Shown here: positions 429 to 38,748 of the stretch, one piece after another | Position numbering within the stretch: position 1 is the first letter of the stretch | Layout of the letters: each line of letters begins with the position of its first letter | Assembly: GCA_016219425.1 (NCBI GenBank) | Contig: JACRNB010000005.1 | Location: 62,001 to 126,000, forward strand | DNA length: 64,000 nucleotides | Direction: 5' to 3' | From: Betaproteobacteria bacterium | GTDB lineage: Bacteria; Pseudomonadota; Gammaproteobacteria; Burkholderiales; Thiobacillaceae | Position numbers and translations under genes: made by a program | Notes under the pieces: model-generated | What the model saw: the letters and a program-made list of their open reading frames with translations, nothing else | Database searches by the model: none | What the model was told of the DNA's origin: nothing

Positions 429-965
429 ATGATCATGCTGGAATCCCTTGCTTTCGCCCTCGTCAAAACCCTGATCTCGTTCATGTTCCAGCAACACCTG
501 GAAGAGAGTCAGGCGGTGCGCATGGAAGGCGCCCCCGCCTGGTACTACCGCCAGGCGGAAAACCAGTTGTGCGAATCGGCCTTTGCCCAGGGCGGGCTGG
601 AGGCGGTGGAGGCTTCCAAATCCAATGCGCGGGCGCAACTGGTCACGCGCATCAATCGCGCCATGGATGTGGTGATCTACGACAACTTCCGCAATCGCCG
701 TGATCCGGCGGAACGGGATCTGATCGACCGCTTCCGTCTGGATGCGGACCTGCCCGTCTTTGTGGACGGCAGCGCCGTGGACGAGAACCTGGAATACCGG
801 GAGCAGCAACGTACCGCCTACGCCCGCGCCTGCCTGCCCAAGGAGAAGCTGGTTTCCTACCAGACCGAGCGCGTGGGAAAACTGCGGAAGTCCGTCACCC
901 TGCATCGCCGCGACCGCGGGTTTGAGGAGATGGATGCTGACGTGGGCAAGCCGGCGAAGAAGTGA
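429..965 (+). CDS. Conserved hypothetical protein (178 aa)
   Basis: Intact ORF MIMLESLAFALVKTLISFMFQQHLEESQAVRMEGAPAWYYRQ...; no family recognised. Confidence 0.6.
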   Translation: MIMLESLAFALVKTLISFMFQQHLEESQAVRMEGAPAWYYRQAENQLCESAFAQGGLEAVEASKSNARAQLVTRINRAMDVVIYDNFRNRRDPAERDLIDRFRLDADLPVFVDGSAVDENLEYREQQRTAYARACLPKEKLVSYQTERVGKLRKSVTLHRRDRGFEEMDADVGKPAKK

Positions 966-31714: not shown

Positions 31715-32326
31715 ATGCCCCCCGAACTCCTGATCCGTCGCCTGGGCCGCGTCGAGTACGAGCCCGCCTGGCGCGCCATGCAGACCTTCACCGCCGAGCG
31801 CACGGCGGACACCCCGGACGAGATCTGGCTGGTGGAGCACCCGCCCGTCTTCACCCTGGGGCAGGCCGGCAGGCGGGAACATGTGTTGACGGACATCGGC
31901 ATCCCCATCGTCCCCATCGACCGGGGCGGCCAGGTCACCTACCACGGCCCCGGCCAGGTGGTGATCTACCTGCTGCTGGATTTGCGCCGGCGCGGCTATG
32001 GGGTCAAGGAGTTGGTGCGGCGCATGGAGCAGGCGGTGATCGACTGCCTGGCGGGCGAGGGCATCGCCGCGCAGCGCCAGGAGGGCGCGCCGGGCGTCTA
32101 TGTGGCCGGGGCCAAGATCGCCGCCCTCGGGCTGCGCGTGCGCGGCGGGTGCAGCTACCACGGCCTGGCGTTGAATGTGGACATGGACCTGACGCCGTTC
32201 CGGGCCATCAATCCGTGCGGCTACGCGGGCATGGCGGTGACGCAGATGCGGGATCTGGGCGCATCCCCCACGCCTGCGGAGGCGGGCGACGCCCTGTTGA
32301 CCCTTCTGGAACAAGGCCTGAAATAG
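31715..32326 (+). CDS. lipB: Octanoyltransferase
   Basis: [22 protein letters not shown]...[14 protein letters not shown]-type motif ([26 protein letters not shown]), [26 protein letters not shown]. Confidence 0.95.
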
Positions 32327-32354
32327 AAAAAGGCGGGGAAATCCCCGCCTTTTT
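32327..32354. terminator. Bidirectional intrinsic terminator between lipB and the lipoprotein operon
   Basis: aaaaaggcggggaaatccccgccttttt: perfect stem with A-tract and T-tract between convergent genes. Confidence 0.93.
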
Positions 32355-32371: not shown

Positions 32372-32977
32372 TTAACGCTTGGCTTCGATGTTGGCGATCT
32401 CAGCAGCCAGCTCGTCCTGACCCTGCTTGGCCTTGAATTGCTGCCACAGGGCCTGGTCGTTGCGCATGCTGGTCTTGAGGGCTTCCTGGGCTTTTTGCTT
32501 GGTCTGCATGGGGTCCAGGCCCACCAGGACGTACATGGAGCCCTTGGAACTGGTGACGCTACGGAAGACGCGGGAACCTTCGATGGTCTCGGTGGTGATC
32601 AGCTTGGACACGCTGGTGTTGACCTTGTCCACCGTCTCGGAGGCGGCGGCGCCGGTGGTCTCCACGTACTGCTTGACCATGTTGGTCACCTTCACCTTCA
32701 TCTGCTGCGCCAGGGTGACGCGGGCGGCGGCGGCGGCCTGATCCTTCATGAACTGGGGACCGGCGCCGGACTTCTCATGCATGCCCACGGCGGAAACGCT
32801 GACGCCTTCCACGGGCGCATCGCACACCCAGGCGGGCGCGGCTTCGCTCGGGCTGTCCGGGAAGGTGCAGTCCGGACGCGGTGCGGCGGCTTCCTTGGTG
32901 GACTTGCCGCCCCCCAGACAACCGCCCAGGGCCACGGCCAGCAGGGACATCAACAATGCGGTGCGAATCTTGGTCAT
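32372..32977 (-). CDS. LPP20-like lipoprotein
   Basis: Lipobox LAVALGGCLGG; SAVGMHEKSGAGPQFMKDQAAAAARVTLAQQMKVKVTNMVKQYVETTG is LPP20-like. Confidence 0.75.
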   Translation of the reverse strand: MTKIRTALLMSLLAVALGGCLGGGKSTKEAAAPRPDCTFPDSPSEAAPAWVCDAPVEGVSVSAVGMHEKSGAGPQFMKDQAAAAARVTLAQQMKVKVTNMVKQYVETTGAAASETVDKVNTSVSKLITTETIEGSRVFRSVTSSKGSMYVLVGLDPMQTKQKAQEALKTSMRNDQALWQQFKAKQGQDELAAEIANIEAKR

Positions 32978-33071
32978 GTGCTTCTCCTAGAAAAAACTGG
33001 AACTACGAATACCGCCCCCTTAGTGCGGGGCCTCCGATTAACTGTCCGGTCGGCTGACCGGAACGCCACGA

Positions 33072-33476
33072 TTACTCCTTGCTGGGCGTGACCCAGACCC
33101 ACAACACGCCGGTATCCGGGTCTGTCCACTTGGCGCGCAACGCCGCCTTTACATCCTGCTGCTTCACTTCCTCACGGATGTTCTTGTCCGACACGGTGGC
33201 GCTACGCCCGTCCGCCACGGTCTGCTGTACCAGATGCTCGCTGCTGATGGTCACCCCGTAACGCTTGGCGTATTCCTCCCGTGCACGGGTGATGGCCAGT
33301 TCCTCCTGGGCCTGACGTCCGCGCACATGAAAACCGGCGGAGGCGGAAACGCCGTCGCCGGGGTTGTCGATCCAGGCTGGACGCGCAACGGCCTTGGCCG
33401 CTTCCGGGCGGGTTCCTCCGTCCAGCGCGCATCCCGCAAGCAGGGCGGCGAACAGCAGGGCGATGATGGATTTCAT
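33072..33476 (-). CDS. Small lipoprotein (LPP20-related?)
   Basis: MKSIIALLFAALLAGCALDGGTRPEAAKAVARPAWIDNPGDGVSASAGFHVRGRQAQEELAITRAREEYAKRYG; lipobox LLAGC. Confidence 0.7.
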   Translation of the reverse strand: MKSIIALLFAALLAGCALDGGTRPEAAKAVARPAWIDNPGDGVSASAGFHVRGRQAQEELAITRAREEYAKRYGVTISSEHLVQQTVADGRSATVSDKNIREEVKQQDVKAALRAKWTDPDTGVLWVWVTPSKE

Positions 33477-33488
33477 GATGGCTTCCGC

Positions 33489-34499
33489 CTACTTGAGTTT
33501 GCGCATGAGGCCTTCAAACAGGCCCATCTCATGCTTCAGTTTCACCACGTCGCCCAGTCGCACCTGACGCGCCTTGGGGTCGTCCCCCGCCGAGACCCAG
33601 GACTCGTTCTCGGTGATGTGGCCGGTGATGGCGGCGTCCATGATCGGGACATCCTCGCTGGATACCTTTCCGGAAAGCGGGTTGGTGTGCTGGCGCACCG
33701 TGAAAATGCCCACCTTGGCGCCCGCCTGCGCGCCCTGGCGGCTGCCCAGCATGACCTTGAAGATGGTCTTGGCCCCGTCCACCTTCTTTTCGATCACATA
33801 GCCCTTGATGGTGAACTGGTTCAACAAGGCGGTGCGAGCGCCGCGCACGGCGTCCTCCGCCGCCCGGCGCACCATGGTCACGCCCTTGTCGTGGTTGCCG
33901 CCCTGGCTCGCGCCGGTGTCGCTGTCGCTGCCTTTGGCCGGCACGGTGGCGATCAGCACCAGGCTGGGAATCTGATAGATCTGGATGTTGGCGTTCACCT
34001 TGGCGCGGTGGGTGTAGGACGCGGGGATGGTGTAGACCTTGCCGTCCTTGCCCTTGTACTCGGTGGCAGGCACATATTCCGCCCCGTACTCGGCGTTGGT
34101 GATGGTGGAGCGGATGGCGTAGTTGGCCACCGCCGGGCCGCTGTATGTGCCTTCGCCCTTGGCGTCGGCCAGCATCACCTCATCCTTCAGGCGGCTGGCC
34201 AGAGTGCGATCCACGATCTCCGTGGCGCCGCCGCTCAGCAGGGTCTCGATGGTGCGCGAGAGGACGATGCCGGCCTGGGCCTGCCGCGCCAGATGCAGGT
34301 TGCCGTCATCCCCTTCAAAGACGATGACCTTGTTGGTCTGTTGGGCCAGGCTTTCCTTGGAAGGCAGCACATCCGCCTCCAGCAGGGAGGCATTCTTGTA
34401 CTTGCCCAGATCCAGATCGTTGCTGGCGCACCCCGCCAGGGCCAAGGCGGCGCAGAGTGCTGCGATGCCCGAAATCCGTTCCATCATGAATCGCTCCAT
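33489..34499 (-). CDS. CsgG-like outer-membrane lipoprotein
   Basis: Lipobox LALAGCASN; VIVFEGDDGNLHLARQAQAGIVLSRTIETLLSGGATEIVDRTLASRLKDE...VRRAAEDAVRGARTALLNQF; arrangement similar to CsgG-type proteins. Confidence 0.6.
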   Translation of the reverse strand: MERFMMERISGIAALCAALALAGCASNDLDLGKYKNASLLEADVLPSKESLAQQTNKVIVFEGDDGNLHLARQAQAGIVLSRTIETLLSGGATEIVDRTLASRLKDEVMLADAKGEGTYSGPAVANYAIRSTITNAEYGAEYVPATEYKGKDGKVYTIPASYTHRAKVNANIQIYQIPSLVLIATVPAKGSDSDTGASQGGNHDKGVTMVRRAAEDAVRGARTALLNQFTIKGYVIEKKVDGAKTIFKVMLGSRQGAQAGAKVGIFTVRQHTNPLSGKVSSEDVPIMDAAITGHITENESWVSAGDDPKARQVRLGDVVKLKHEMGLFEGLMRKLK

Positions 34500-34514
34500 C
34501 TGTCCGTTACGGAC

Positions 34515-35507
34515 TCAATCCCTGAAACCCAGTCCCGCCACCGGCCCCGCCTCGCGCAGGGCCTCCAGCAGTTTCTGCACCGCCCCCTGGCGCGCGGCCC
34601 GGTGGTCCTTCACCGAGGCCCCGGACACCGCATAGGTCCGGCTTGCCAGGGTGCGTTCCTGCCCATCCCGCACGGTCAGGGCCACATTCAGCTTCACGAT
34701 CTTGCTGCCGAACAGGTCTTCGGCGCGCTGGGAAGCGCTTACTTCGACGCTCGCACCGCCCGGTGCGCGCCCGGTGCGCATGCCGCTGTCGTTCACGAAC
34801 TGGCCCACCGCCGCGGCCAGATCGCCGTCGTCGTAGCCGGAGCGGAGGTCGAACACCAGATTGCGCCCCGCCTGGACGCCCTGCTCCAGATATCCCTCAT
34901 ACCGGCGCAGGCGGTCTGCGCCCTTGAAGCCGGCGTCTGCGCCGGACAGCAACTGGGTGTAGCCGATGGCCTTTTCCAGGCCGGGCTGGGCGCGGCGCAG
35001 GGCGAGAAAGGCCTCAATCGGGGATTTGGCCTCCAGGCCCGCCACGGCGGCGTTCACGGCGGCGTCGGCATTGTCCAGCTTGGCCTGGGTGTCGCGCAGG
35101 AAGGCCAGACGGTCCACCTTCACCAGCGCGTAGAAGCCCTGCGGCGAGGGGGCGGTCTTGTCCACGGCGAAGTGGCTGAACTCGGTTTTCTGCACCTCTT
35201 CCGAGACCCGCGACCGGGCCTGACGATCCACCGTGTCGTTGCGCACGGAGACCTTGTTCTCCAGGCTGCCGGAGATGCTGACGCGGAGTTTTGCGGCCAC
35301 ATCCTTGAGGGCGGCGCGGCGCGCGGCGTCCAGCTCCGGACCCTCACCCACGCCCCAGTACCACTCGGAACTGTCCTTGGGCGGCGAGAGCACCCAGGAA
35401 GGCGCGGCAGCCACGGGCTCCGCTGACTTCTTGGACAGGGTCAGACAGCCTGAGAGGGAAAGGAGAAGCAGGAGCGCCAGCAGTATTGGTTTACGCATGT
35501 TCGTCAT
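34515..35507 (-). CDS. LPP20-like lipoprotein (long)
   Basis: Lipobox LLSLSGCLTL; APSWVLSPPKDSSEWYWGVGEGPELDAARRAALKDVAAKLRVSISGSLENKVSVRND. Confidence 0.72.
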   Translation of the reverse strand: MTNMRKPILLALLLLLSLSGCLTLSKKSAEPVAAAPSWVLSPPKDSSEWYWGVGEGPELDAARRAALKDVAAKLRVSISGSLENKVSVRNDTVDRQARSRVSEEVQKTEFSHFAVDKTAPSPQGFYALVKVDRLAFLRDTQAKLDNADAAVNAAVAGLEAKSPIEAFLALRRAQPGLEKAIGYTQLLSGADAGFKGADRLRRYEGYLEQGVQAGRNLVFDLRSGYDDGDLAAAVGQFVNDSGMRTGRAPGGASVEVSASQRAEDLFGSKIVKLNVALTVRDGQERTLASRTYAVSGASVKDHRAARQGAVQKLLEALREAGPVAGLGFRD

Positions 35508-37447
35508 GTTCGTGGCCCGGGGCCGGGATTATCACAGTCTTGCCAACACAATTCGTACACCGTTTGCGGCTGCTCCTTGCCGGCGACCTGTATTTCTCCA
35601 AGCGGGCGGCAGGGCAGCGCATCCTTGACCTGTCGCCAGGTCGATTCGCCGATCACCACATCCACCCCAAGCTTCTTGGTGGCGCTTTCGAAGCGGGATG
35701 CCAAGTTCACAACATCCCCTATCGCAGTGTAGTTAAAGCGTATGGAGGAACCAAGGTTGCCGACGATGGCCGGGCCGGTGTTGATGCCGATGCCGGTGCG
35801 CAGCGCAGGGCCGCCGATGCGCGCCAGATCCGCGTTGATGGCTCGTTGCGCGTACTGCATGGCGACGGCGGCGCGGCAGGCGGCCAGCGCATGGTCGGGC
35901 TGGTCCAGGGGGGCGTTGAACAGGGCCATGATGGCGTCGCCGATGTACTTGTCCAGGGCGCCGCCCTGCGCGAACACCGCCTCGGTCATGGGCTGGAAAT
36001 AGCGCGCCATGATCTCGGCCAGGCGCTCCGGCGCCACCCCCTCGGACATGGAGGTGAAGCCGCGGATGTCCGAGAACAGCACGGAGATCTCCTTCTTCTC
36101 CCCGCCCAGACGGAGTTGTTCCGGGTTTTCCACGATGCGGCTCACCAGCCCCGGCGGCAGGTAGGTGGAGAAGGCCAGCCGCAGCTTTTCCGTGTGCTGG
36201 CGCGAATGCGACAACAGGGCGGTCTCCAGCAGCAACGCCGAGAGGCCGATGGCCGCCAGGAGATACGCACTCTCCAGCCACACCCCGGCCAGGAGATAAA
36301 GCAGCAGGCCCGCCCCCCAGGCAGCCCCCGCCAGCGCCAGGTACAGCCCCGCCCGCACCAGGATGTTGCGCACCCAGGCCATGGGCGCCACCAGAGTCAG
36401 CACCAGCGCCAGCGCCCCGGCCATGGCGACGGGGCCGATCTCCCGCAGGGTGTGGCCGTCCAGCACGTTGGCCATGAAGGTGGCGTGCAGCAGCGCCCCC
36501 GGATACTGGCCCAGCGGCGTGGCGCGGATGTCGGTGACGCCCGCCTCGGTCACGCCCAGCAGCACGATCTTGCCGACCAGGGAGGCAGGGTCGAAACCCG
36601 GTGCGAACAGGTCGGCGAAGGACATCAGCCGAAAGCGGGTCTCAGGGTAGAAGTTGAGGCGGGTGAAGCCGCGTTCGTCCAGGCGCACCCTGCGCTCGGC
36701 AAAGTTGAGCGTGTGCGCATTCAGGTCCGCCTCGGTATCCAGAAACACCTGTAGCGACTGCACCCCCAGGCTGGGCTGCACCATGCCCAGCAGCAGGAAG
36801 GCGGCGGGGTAGTGGCGGAAGCGTTCGTCGTGGTCCGGCAGGGTGTTGAGCGAGGCCAGGGCCGCCTGCCCCGCCAGAATCTCCGGAATCGACAGTTCCA
36901 CCACGCGGCTTTCCACCAGACGGGCGTCCTGCACCCGGGTCAGGGCGGAATTGGCCAGCCGGTCCAGCTCCGCAGCGCCGGGCTGGCTGGGGCGCACGCC
37001 ATTGAGCAGAAAGCCGCCCACCGCCGTGGTGCGTCCAAACGAGGCCGCCAGGGCGCGGTCTTTTGCCGCTTCGGTCGGTTCCGAGAACACCATGTCCAGG
37101 GCGATCACGCGCGCCTGGGCCAGACGATCCATGCCTTGGGCGATCACATCACGCGGCCACGGCCAGCGCCCAAAGCGCTTCACCGCGTCGTGATCCACCG
37201 CGATGAACACGATGTCCTGGCTGGGGGTATGGGGGTTGAAACGGTAGTAGGTATCGCTCACCGCGCTGGACAGGCTGCCGACGGGGCCGGGCTGCCAGTG
37301 AAACAAGGCCGTCAGCGCGGCGCACAACAAGGCCAGCAGACCGCCCAGGCGCAAGGCTTCCGGGCGGGTCAGGGGAAGGTTCAATGCCGATCCTTCAATG
37401 CAGATCCAGCCAGACGCGCAGGTCTTCCAGTTGGCGGGCCGATTCAC
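35504..37447 (-). CDS. CHASE2-domain membrane adenylate/guanylate cyclase (class III); start uncertain
   Basis: CHASE2 VSDTYYRFNPHTPSQDIVFIAVDHDAVKRFGRWPWPRDVIAQ; 3 TM; cyclase EISVLFSDIRGFTSMSEG...LDKYIGDAIMALFNAP...FNYTAIGDVVNLASR. Stop overlaps next start (ATGA). Confidence 0.9.
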   Translation of the reverse strand: MNRPANWKTCASGWICIEGSALNLPLTRPEALRLGGLLALLCAALTALFHWQPGPVGSLSSAVSDTYYRFNPHTPSQDIVFIAVDHDAVKRFGRWPWPRDVIAQGMDRLAQARVIALDMVFSEPTEAAKDRALAASFGRTTAVGGFLLNGVRPSQPGAAELDRLANSALTRVQDARLVESRVVELSIPEILAGQAALASLNTLPDHDERFRHYPAAFLLLGMVQPSLGVQSLQVFLDTEADLNAHTLNFAERRVRLDERGFTRLNFYPETRFRLMSFADLFAPGFDPASLVGKIVLLGVTEAGVTDIRATPLGQYPGALLHATFMANVLDGHTLREIGPVAMAGALALVLTLVAPMAWVRNILVRAGLYLALAGAAWGAGLLLYLLAGVWLESAYLLAAIGLSALLLETALLSHSRQHTEKLRLAFSTYLPPGLVSRIVENPEQLRLGGEKKEISVLFSDIRGFTSMSEGVAPERLAEIMARYFQPMTEAVFAQGGALDKYIGDAIMALFNAPLDQPDHALAACRAAVAMQYAQRAINADLARIGGPALRTGIGINTGPAIVGNLGSSIRFNYTAIGDVVNLASRFESATKKLGVDVVIGESTWRQVKDALPCRPLGEIQVAGKEQPQTVYELCWQDCDNPGPGPRT

Positions 37448-38153
37448 CCGCGATGGCGCGTTCCACGGCGATATGGCCGCTGATGGCCAACTCCCTGCCG
37501 GCCTGGAGGGTCATGTTCTCCACATAGGCGACGAATTCCCGCTCGGTCTGGGCCTTGTAGGCCTCAAAGGCGGCCTTTTCACGTTCCACGCCTTCCTGGG
37601 CCTGGCGCTTGTAGGCCTCGAAATCATTTTCCTGCGCGCGCGCCGCCGCCTTCTCGCGGTACAGGCCCAGCGGCCCCTGGGTGCTGCGCACGTCCACCAC
37701 GCCCTGATCCAGCACCACGCTCACGCCCTCGGCCTGGTCGCGCACCAGAAAGCGGGTGCCCTTCACGCCGATCACCGAGAGCCGCGTCGCCACATGCACC
37801 GACTGACCGGCGCGGCGCTTCTGCACCTCGTACAGGGCCTGGCCCTTGGCCAGCCCGGCCAGCCCCGCACCCTTGAACAGGGCCACGCTGTCCCGATCCA
37901 CCGCCACGCTGAAGCGGCCATTGGCGATCAACGCCCGTCCGGCAAAGGTGTGCACTTCATCCCCCGCGCACAGCGGGCTGGGCGCCTGGCCGGGGCTGCG
38001 TTTCAACACCCCGCGCGCGGGCTTGATGCTGACCTGGCCTTCGTAACTGGTGATGCTCGCCACCACGTCGCAGGCGGGTTGGGCCGCGGCGGAGGCGGCG
38101 AACAGGCAAAGCGCCGCCAGGAAAACGGAACGGAATCGTTGGGTCATCTGCAA
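37395..38153 (-). CDS. Secreted FecR-domain protein with C-terminal coiled-coil
   Basis: Signal peptide; ITSYEGQVSIKPARGVLKRSPGQAPSPLCAGDEVHTFAGRALIANGRFSVAVDRDS...TRLSVIGVKGTRFLVRD. Confidence 0.82.
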   Translation of the reverse strand: MQMTQRFRSVFLAALCLFAASAAAQPACDVVASITSYEGQVSIKPARGVLKRSPGQAPSPLCAGDEVHTFAGRALIANGRFSVAVDRDSVALFKGAGLAGLAKGQALYEVQKRRAGQSVHVATRLSVIGVKGTRFLVRDQAEGVSVVLDQGVVDVRSTQGPLGLYREKAAARAQENDFEAYKRQAQEGVEREKAAFEAYKAQTEREFVAYVENMTLQAGRELAISGHIAVERAIAGESARQLEDLRVWLDLH

Positions 38154-38169
38154 GCTCCCCTGTGCTTCA

Positions 38170-38748
38170 TCAATGGCCGTTGGTCCTTACCCCAGCCGGA
38201 GGCGCAGGCTCGACCGGGGGCGTCAGCTTTTCTTTCAGGCTGCGCTTCAGGTCTTCCTCCAACTGGCGGATCAGCTTGTCCATGTACACCGCGCTCTCGC
38301 GCTTCATGCGCGCCAGCACCACTTCCAGCTTGAACGCCAGGTCCGGCGGCAGGATCACCTCATCCCCCTTGAAGGAGGCCACCACGGAATCCTTCATGTA
38401 CTGGAACAGCAGGTCGAGTTCCTCTTCCGTGAAGGTGTTGCGCAGGCTCTTGCCCAGGTCGGACAAGGTCGGGCCCGCAGGCGCCTGGGGCGCGGCGGCA
38501 GGCGGCGGCGCAACCACGGCGGGAGGTTTTGCCGGCGTCTGGCCCTGTAGCAGCGGGGGCGAGGGGGGCGTTGGCAGGTACGGGTTCTGGGCCTGGGCGG
38601 GCGGTTGCAGCACGGGCGCCTGGAGGCTGGGCTGATAACCCTGTTGCACCGGCTGCGGCGTCAGCAGGTAGTACGGCCAGTACTGCTGCGCCTGGGCCGG
38701 GAGGGCCAGGGGGATGAACAGGAGAAGGGACAGGCGCACGCGCTTCAT
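38170..38748 (-). CDS. Secreted Pro/Gln-rich protein, unknown function
   Basis: MKRVRLSLLLFIPLALPAQAQQYWPYYLLTPQPVQQGYQPSLQAPVLQPPAQAQNPYLPTPP...; signal peptide, low complexity then helical C-terminus. Confidence 0.65.
   Translation of the reverse strand: MKRVRLSLLLFIPLALPAQAQQYWPYYLLTPQPVQQGYQPSLQAPVLQPPAQAQNPYLPTPPSPPLLQGQTPAKPPAVVAPPPAAAPQAPAGPTLSDLGKSLRNTFTEEELDLLFQYMKDSVVASFKGDEVILPPDLAFKLEVVLARMKRESAVYMDKLIRQLEEDLKRSLKEKLTPPVEPAPPAGVRTNGH

Follow-up and report, generated by a model that had tools for sequence, protein, structure and literature searches.

Few of the signals to which CHASE2 receptors respond are known, and outside flagella no role has been assigned to LPP20 lipoproteins. 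The locus described here joins a CHASE2 receptor, LPP20 lipoproteins and, as a third partner, a conserved enzyme, and so offers a concrete test of both. The question it raises is whether its signalling genes and its lipoprotein genes belong to one system and, if so, what that system does.

Organization of the locus

The window (the whole 64,000-nucleotide stretch of DNA that was analysed) carries a run of seven ORFs on its minus strand, from 38748 to 32372. Their places and order had been proposed by a sequence-only reading and were all confirmed. The features are as follows:

38170..38748, minus strand: ORF1, Pro/Gln-rich secreted protein, 192 aa, with a Sec signal; first gene of the presumed transcript
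37395..38147, minus strand: ORF2, periplasmic FecR-domain protein (PF04773)
35504..37384, minus strand: ORF3, CHASE2 receptor adenylate cyclase (PF05226 and PF00211, catalytic residues)
34515..35507, minus strand: ORF4 (LPP20a), lipoprotein with an N-terminal LPP20 domain (PF02169, profile comparison)
33489..34499, minus strand: ORF5, lipoprotein with a CsgG/TolB-N-type domain and a C-terminal beta domain (fold of the model)
33072..33476, minus strand: ORF6, small lipoprotein with a degenerate LPP20 domain (profile comparison, synteny)
32372..32977, minus strand: ORF7 (LPP20b), lipoprotein (PF02169)
32327..32354, minus strand: intrinsic terminator, 13-bp stem and U-run (folding against shuffles)
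429..965, plus strand: stray component, 178-aa protein with an N-terminal hydrophobic stretch (orthologue at the operon end in congeners)

The overlap of the cyclase stop with the next start (ATGA, at the ORF3-ORF4 junction) and the mostly short intergenic gaps were also found as described: about 20 bp between ORF1 and ORF2, about 10 bp between ORF2 and ORF3, 15 bp between ORF4 and ORF5, and 12 bp between ORF5 and ORF6. The widest gap, 94 bp between ORF6 and ORF7, folds hardly better than shuffles (z -1.3), and no conserved RNA besides the ribosome-binding site was found in it. The terminator is indeed strong (-24 to -26 kcal/mol, z -4.0 against shuffles), and as it sits between convergent genes (the convergent gene being 31715-32326) it may serve both transcription units. 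A search of Rfam gave no match and one of PHROGs no useful match. One gene boundary was revised: the cyclase had been placed at 35504-37447, and TTG 37384 is a better start than GTG 37447, as congener proteins align from there (with ATG in L019) and GTG 37447 falls within the FecR gene.

ORF1 belongs to no Pfam or NCBIfam family above cut-off, and its counterpart was not found in any other locus examined. Its C-terminal ~80 residues (within 38170-38748) look helical and are matched by no family searched.

The FecR protein and the CHASE2 cyclase

HMM searches confirmed both predicted signalling domains, FecR on ORF2 (PF04773, 5e-6) and CHASE2-cyclase on ORF3 (PF05226, 3e-43; Guanylate_cyc PF00211, 4e-21). 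ORF3 consists of an N-terminal membrane helix, the CHASE2 domain, a cluster of membrane helices and a class III cyclase. Its two metal Asp (D439 and D483), the adenine-selecting K479 and T553, and the transition-state residues N560 and R564 are invariant in six orthologues. Judged by its sequence, with every residue for class III adenylate cyclase chemistry intact, ORF3 should make cAMP.

The FecR-domain gene lies directly upstream of the CHASE2 receptor gene, an arrangement kept in five congeners. That such pairs are known was confirmed from the consulted passages of PMC5192318, according to which FecR-CHASE2 operons occur without LPP20/ORF5-type lipoproteins. At its C-terminus the FecR protein carries an F..YK..EF..Y coil module, which is common to the N-terminus of a transglutaminase-like protein considered below. 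The two modules match at E 4.8e-7 for the window protein, while 0/1800 shuffled sequences were listed at E<=10; a generic coiled coil could be an alternative explanation of the sharing.

Three LPP20-type lipoproteins and a FlgT/CsgG-like fold

The two LPP20-like lipoproteins that had been proposed, ORF4 and ORF7, match PF02169 (1.8e-7 and 2e-8, respectively). Both lie above the family cut-off, possess a lipobox, and are the only genes in their genome to exceed that cut-off. ORF6, labelled a small lipoprotein, is one, and more precisely a third LPP20-type protein: it matches no Pfam or NCBIfam family above cut-off and scores 90-95% with LPP20a and LPP20b in profile comparison. Over its full length LPP20a is homologous to the LPP20 of LpoB-TPR-LPP20 clusters (profile comparisons: L089, 98% over 311 columns; L082, 85% over 287). 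LPP20b, the most widely conserved lipoprotein of the locus, is related to H. pylori Lpp20 (5ok8, 5e-10) and carries two invariant extra cysteines, C37 and C52. The lipoboxes of the four lipoproteins are clear in this genome and their +2 residues are L, A, A and L, which we take to agree with outer-membrane sorting under E. coli rules. The membrane of LPP20a is uncertain, since in some relatives the +2 residue of its lipobox is Asp, Asn or Glu.

The description of ORF5 as CsgG-like holds for its fold and fails for its sequence. ORF5 has no match to PF03783 at E<=0.1, whereas other genes of the genome do match; it reaches the cut-off of no Pfam or NCBIfam family, and a sequence search against the PDB gave no meaningful match. 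Foldseek matched its AlphaFold2 model (pLDDT 78) best to FlgT (3w1e, E 9e-13) and the LPHT ring structure (8z5n), then to a second group formed by CsgG chains (E 1e-5 to 2e-4), and further to LptE, HpaA and PelC. TM-scores are low (0.27-0.31 to FlgT, 0.2-0.3 on the query overall), so the likeness to FlgT is one of domains and not of the whole protein. From the model, we infer that ORF5 would correspond to the middle and C domains of FlgT. A viral fold search returned weak CsgG/FlgT_C matches only. When genome contigs were searched for exact patterns with the single ORF5 protein no relative was found, and an alignment including distant members held no usable stretch for a pattern, whereas closer sequences did work. 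ORF5 (33489-34499) also changes fastest, with 41-44% identity to congeners vs about 70% for the cyclase and LPP20b; this fast divergence could reflect adaptation to a variable partner, or paralogue replacement.

Conservation within the genus

Among 61 sampled relatives, the own genome included, ORF5 is present in 7, LPP20b in 8, the transglutaminase-like protein in 7 and a close cyclase orthologue in 6, the sets of genomes being nearly identical. All 7 genomes with ORF5 belong to the same genus, and Hydrogenophilales bacterium 28-61-23 is a named organism among the copies, which places the window in the same part of the betaproteobacteria. Close cyclase orthologues show 68-71% identity, the next best about 42% or less. 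The order FecR, CHASE2 cyclase, LPP20a, ORF5, small lipoprotein, LPP20b, transglutaminase-like protein and ~175-aa protein is kept in four congeners (G375, G376, G380 and G381, the last with a longer cyclase-LPP20a gap than the other syntenic ones). In a fifth, G377, all parts are present and split over two contigs, with a contig end before LPP20b. That congeners retain this gene order while their proteins are 41-72% identical goes beyond chance. The upstream flanks vary, with a response regulator in G377, an LpoB-TPR-LPP20 set in G375, and WD40-caspase and DUF4384 genes in G376.

Close cyclase orthologues are confined to genomes that carry the lipoproteins, and congeners without the lipoproteins lack them. 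The proposal that an outer-membrane lipoprotein set is linked to an adenylate cyclase is thus supported by the genomes shared between the close cyclase and ORF5 among the 61 relatives, with the exception of G389. There, LPP20a, ORF5 and LPP20b lie on a short contig and a close cyclase orthologue is absent, indicating that the lipoproteins can exist without the FecR/cyclase pair.

A transglutaminase-like companion and scattered parts

The gene after LPP20b in congeners encodes a secreted 500-580-aa transglutaminase-like protein, and that of the ~175-aa protein comes next. The former has a signal peptide followed by the coil module and a proline-rich linker; in its C-terminal domain C447, H474 and D507, an ordered Cys-His-Asp set, are invariant in 18 divergent sequences. 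Family matches are weak: 3/18 members match DUF553 (best 0.0029, sub-threshold), others are to Transglut_core and LapG, and the one match to NCBIfam LapG (0.0037; 16.5 of 320 bits) is far under the cut-off. A sequence search with the family against the PDB gave no meaningful match, and the structure model (pLDDT 41) is too poor for a fold search. These weak matches and the invariant Cys, His and Asp fit a putative transglutaminase-like cysteine enzyme.

In the genome studied here the transglutaminase-like orthologue (64%) is encoded on another contig, C2, behind a DUF4384/LPP20-type gene, and the orthologue of the ~175-aa protein lies at window positions 429-965; hence the system is scattered in this genome. 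A homologue of the C2 DUF4384-type gene is found directly before FecR in G376 and upstream of FecR in G381. At L019:1172-5598 a WD40-caspase (Peptidase_C14) gene, then a gene for a DUF4384 protein with an LPP20-like N-terminus, stand directly upstream of the congener FecR.

Conservation beyond the genus

In a class sample of 369 genomes, the transglutaminase-like protein occurs in 16 (G056 being marginal), LPP20b in 14 and both in 12 (hypergeometric P 1.5e-17, ignoring relatedness, with families f80 and f139 giving three genomes each), while ORF5 occurs in only 4. Both members of the pair are present yet unlinked in G000, G003, G047 and G052. We conclude that LPP20b and the transglutaminase-like protein are the core of the system. 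Another LPP20 and a lipoprotein of the CsgG or LpoB type often stand beside this core. Members of the LpoB-TPR-LPP20 set accompany LPP20b, the transglutaminase-like gene or both in L082, L084, L086 and L089 (LpoB itself in L082 and L089), and an MltC-like lytic transglycosylase does so in L082, L087 and L089. At L085 a true CsgG, a GNA1162-like protein, an LPP20 and a FecR stand beside the transglutaminase-like gene, and L092 is another lineage in which, as in L085, a FecR-domain gene adjoins it.

The co-occurrence of the lipoproteins with the FecR/cyclase pair holds in congeners other than G389 and not in most loci beyond the genus. The pair is a lineage-specific addition, and the lipoproteins do not need it, being found without it in most homologous loci there. 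The seven-gene run as a natural unit was accordingly not borne out: ORF1 is missing from all other loci, the conserved core also includes the transglutaminase-like protein encoded on another contig, and most homologous lipoprotein loci beyond the genus lack the FecR/cyclase pair.

In Bacteroides finegoldii (NZ_OY725910.1, L105, 93830-101055) a weakly ORF5-like gene, DUF6175, two LPP20 genes, a gene for a 335-aa protein and a transglutaminase-like gene follow one another in that order; the second LPP20 is LPP20b by profile, and the ORF5 link is weak (22% probability). L105 resembles a cyclase-free counterpart in another phylum, and its "plasmid" record bears chromosomal-type genes (dprA, peptidase U32). 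Plasmid records held no LPP20b and, for the transglutaminase-like protein, one Bacteroides record; with this near-absence, known plasmids do not explain the patchy distribution. A search of 399 phylum genomes, a sample that differs from the class draw, gave three matches only.

A proposed mechanism and its alternatives

We suggest, at roughly an even chance, that the locus is one half of an envelope machine in which scaffold lipoproteins and the transglutaminase-like enzyme are read out by the FecR-CHASE2 cyclase via cAMP. On the periplasmic face, the four lipoproteins would assemble an outer-membrane-anchored scaffold for the enzyme. The transglutaminase-like protein would extend into or across the peptidoglycan via its coil and proline-rich linker, and would cleave or rejoin an envelope substrate, either a peptidoglycan peptide or a surface protein. 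In this genus, FecR, bearing the same coil module, might dock to the partner of the transglutaminase-like protein and inform the CHASE2 domain whether that partner is occupied or under strain; CHASE2 would then set cAMP output and, through it, CRP-type gene regulation. We infer this direction, from state to cAMP and not from cAMP to machine, from CHASE2 being a sensory domain. With the FecR/cyclase pair missing in G389 and in most loci beyond the genus, the coupling of lipoproteins to cyclase is read from adjacency. Upkeep of the peptidoglycan or outer membrane is suggested by the partners elsewhere, namely an LpoB-type PBP activator, TPR, an MltC-like lytic transglycosylase, and true CsgG with GNA1162; our best guess at function is an outer-membrane/peptidoglycan maintenance machine that reports through cAMP. 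More tentatively, and with rather less confidence, this may be a new type of envelope machine that spans Bacteroidota to Pseudomonadota, in which LPP20 and CsgG/FlgT/LpoB-type lipoproteins hold a transglutaminase-like enzyme acting on cell wall or surface, and of which one lineage reads the envelope state by FecR-CHASE2 cyclase cAMP.

A rival account, which we consider unlikely, is that a FecR-CHASE2 pair of known type and an unrelated lipoprotein cluster are independent neighbours that came by chance to share a transcript in a single lineage. Operons with FecR and CHASE2 but no such lipoproteins are on record (consulted passages of PMC5192318), lipoprotein/transglutaminase loci beyond the genus mostly lack the pair, and so does G389. 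However, five congeners preserve the order and, for the most part, the tight spacing although their upstream flanks differ, and congeners without the lipoproteins are also without the close cyclase orthologue. The FecR-domain genes beside the transglutaminase-like gene in L085 and L092, and the coil module common to the two proteins, likewise argue against chance. Of the more specific functions, we consider improbable a curli-type or other secretion channel, in which ORF5 would form a CsgG-like pore exporting a substrate (perhaps ORF1) under control of the cyclase. Two things speak for it: CsgG structures are the second group of fold matches, and at L085 a true CsgG and GNA1162 accompany LPP20, FecR and the transglutaminase-like gene. 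Against it stand the lack of a PF03783 match, the absence of a conserved secreted-substrate gene at the loci, and the occupation of the ORF5 place in other loci by LpoB, a non-pore relative; the segment matching the second CsgG membrane hairpin also looks, on reading the sequence, short and Gly/Ser/Asp-rich. Curli-like secretion finds no support in sequence.

Slightly less probable still is surface-adhesin release by an analogue of LapD-LapG working with cAMP, the transglutaminase-like protein being a LapG-like periplasmic protease. The invariant Cys-His-Asp and the weak LapG match of one family member would fit, and both systems would, by hypothesis, be envelope proteases under second-messenger control. 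However, that match falls far short of the cut-off, no conserved adhesin or LapD-like gene was recognised at the loci, and the transglutaminase-like protein carries a coil and a Pro-rich linker in addition. Very unlikely, in our estimate, is a flagellar H-ring or basal-disk accessory of FlgO/FlgP/FlgT type whose genes lie apart from the flagellar cluster, even though FlgT and the LPHT ring are the top PDB matches of the ORF5 model, FlgP, Lpp20 and part of FlgT adopt the LPP20 fold (PMC12222027), and the genome encodes flagellar FlhA on contig C5. As had been noted for the immediate surroundings, no flagellar genes were recognised by eye in the operon or beside homologous loci; the distribution is patchy (7/61 relatives), the constant partner is the transglutaminase-like protein, and the low TM-scores of ORF5 to FlgT indicate matched domains rather than a whole-protein match. 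Furthermore, a similar operon occurs in Bacteroides, which are not known to have flagella. The earlier idea of an H-ring-like assembly consequently survives at the level of fold (ORF5 resembling FlgT, with LPP20/FlgP-type partners) and not as a flagellar role.

Relation to known systems

Each family of the proposed envelope machine is already known, as are FecR-CHASE2 pairs, and the whole arrangement looks undescribed: in the open-access literature (subscription literature being outside the scope of the search) no paper was found uniting any two of CHASE2, LPP20 and CsgG. As in the Burkholderia biofilm-regulating operon (PMC5192318) and the Magnetospirillum MtxA-CHASE2 cyclase (PMC4439547), a gene for a periplasmic protein (FecR in Burkholderia) adjoins the CHASE2 receptor gene. 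A DUF4136 lipoprotein may follow in operons of this type; in the consulted passages, however, they are without LPP20, ORF5 or transglutaminase-like genes, and the output in Burkholderia is a histidine kinase and response regulator. The CHASE2 adenylate cyclases CyaD1/CyaD2/CyaK of S. meliloti are activated through an outer-membrane component, NsrA, and provide a precedent for signalling from the outer membrane to a cyclase (PMC13001267), but NsrA is a beta-barrel and not a lipoprotein set, and the signal there is a plant protein.

Similarly to the LpoB-TPR-LPP20 clusters (L082, L089), comparable to H. pylori HP1457 LpoB and HP1456 Lpp20 (PMC11394524, PMC11756786), a CsgG-superfamily lipoprotein stands here next to LPP20 lipoproteins, but ORF5 replaces LpoB, a TPR protein is absent, and cyclase and FecR are added. 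A FlgT-like fold with LPP20/FlgP-type lipoproteins is shared with the FlgO/FlgP/FlgT rings, from which the locus differs in that ORF5, a lipoprotein, lacks the N domain of FlgT, has no flagellar linkage and has other partners. With the curli channel CsgG, ORF5 shares the core fold, but it lacks a sequence-family match and has a C-terminal beta domain as in FlgT, and curli genes were not recognised. In G000, contig C1:9242-17257 (L026) bears, by eye, FHA, PP2C-type phosphatase, FHA and Ser/Thr kinase genes, followed by genes for two PF03783-matching proteins, possibly another locus linking signalling to envelope lipoproteins.
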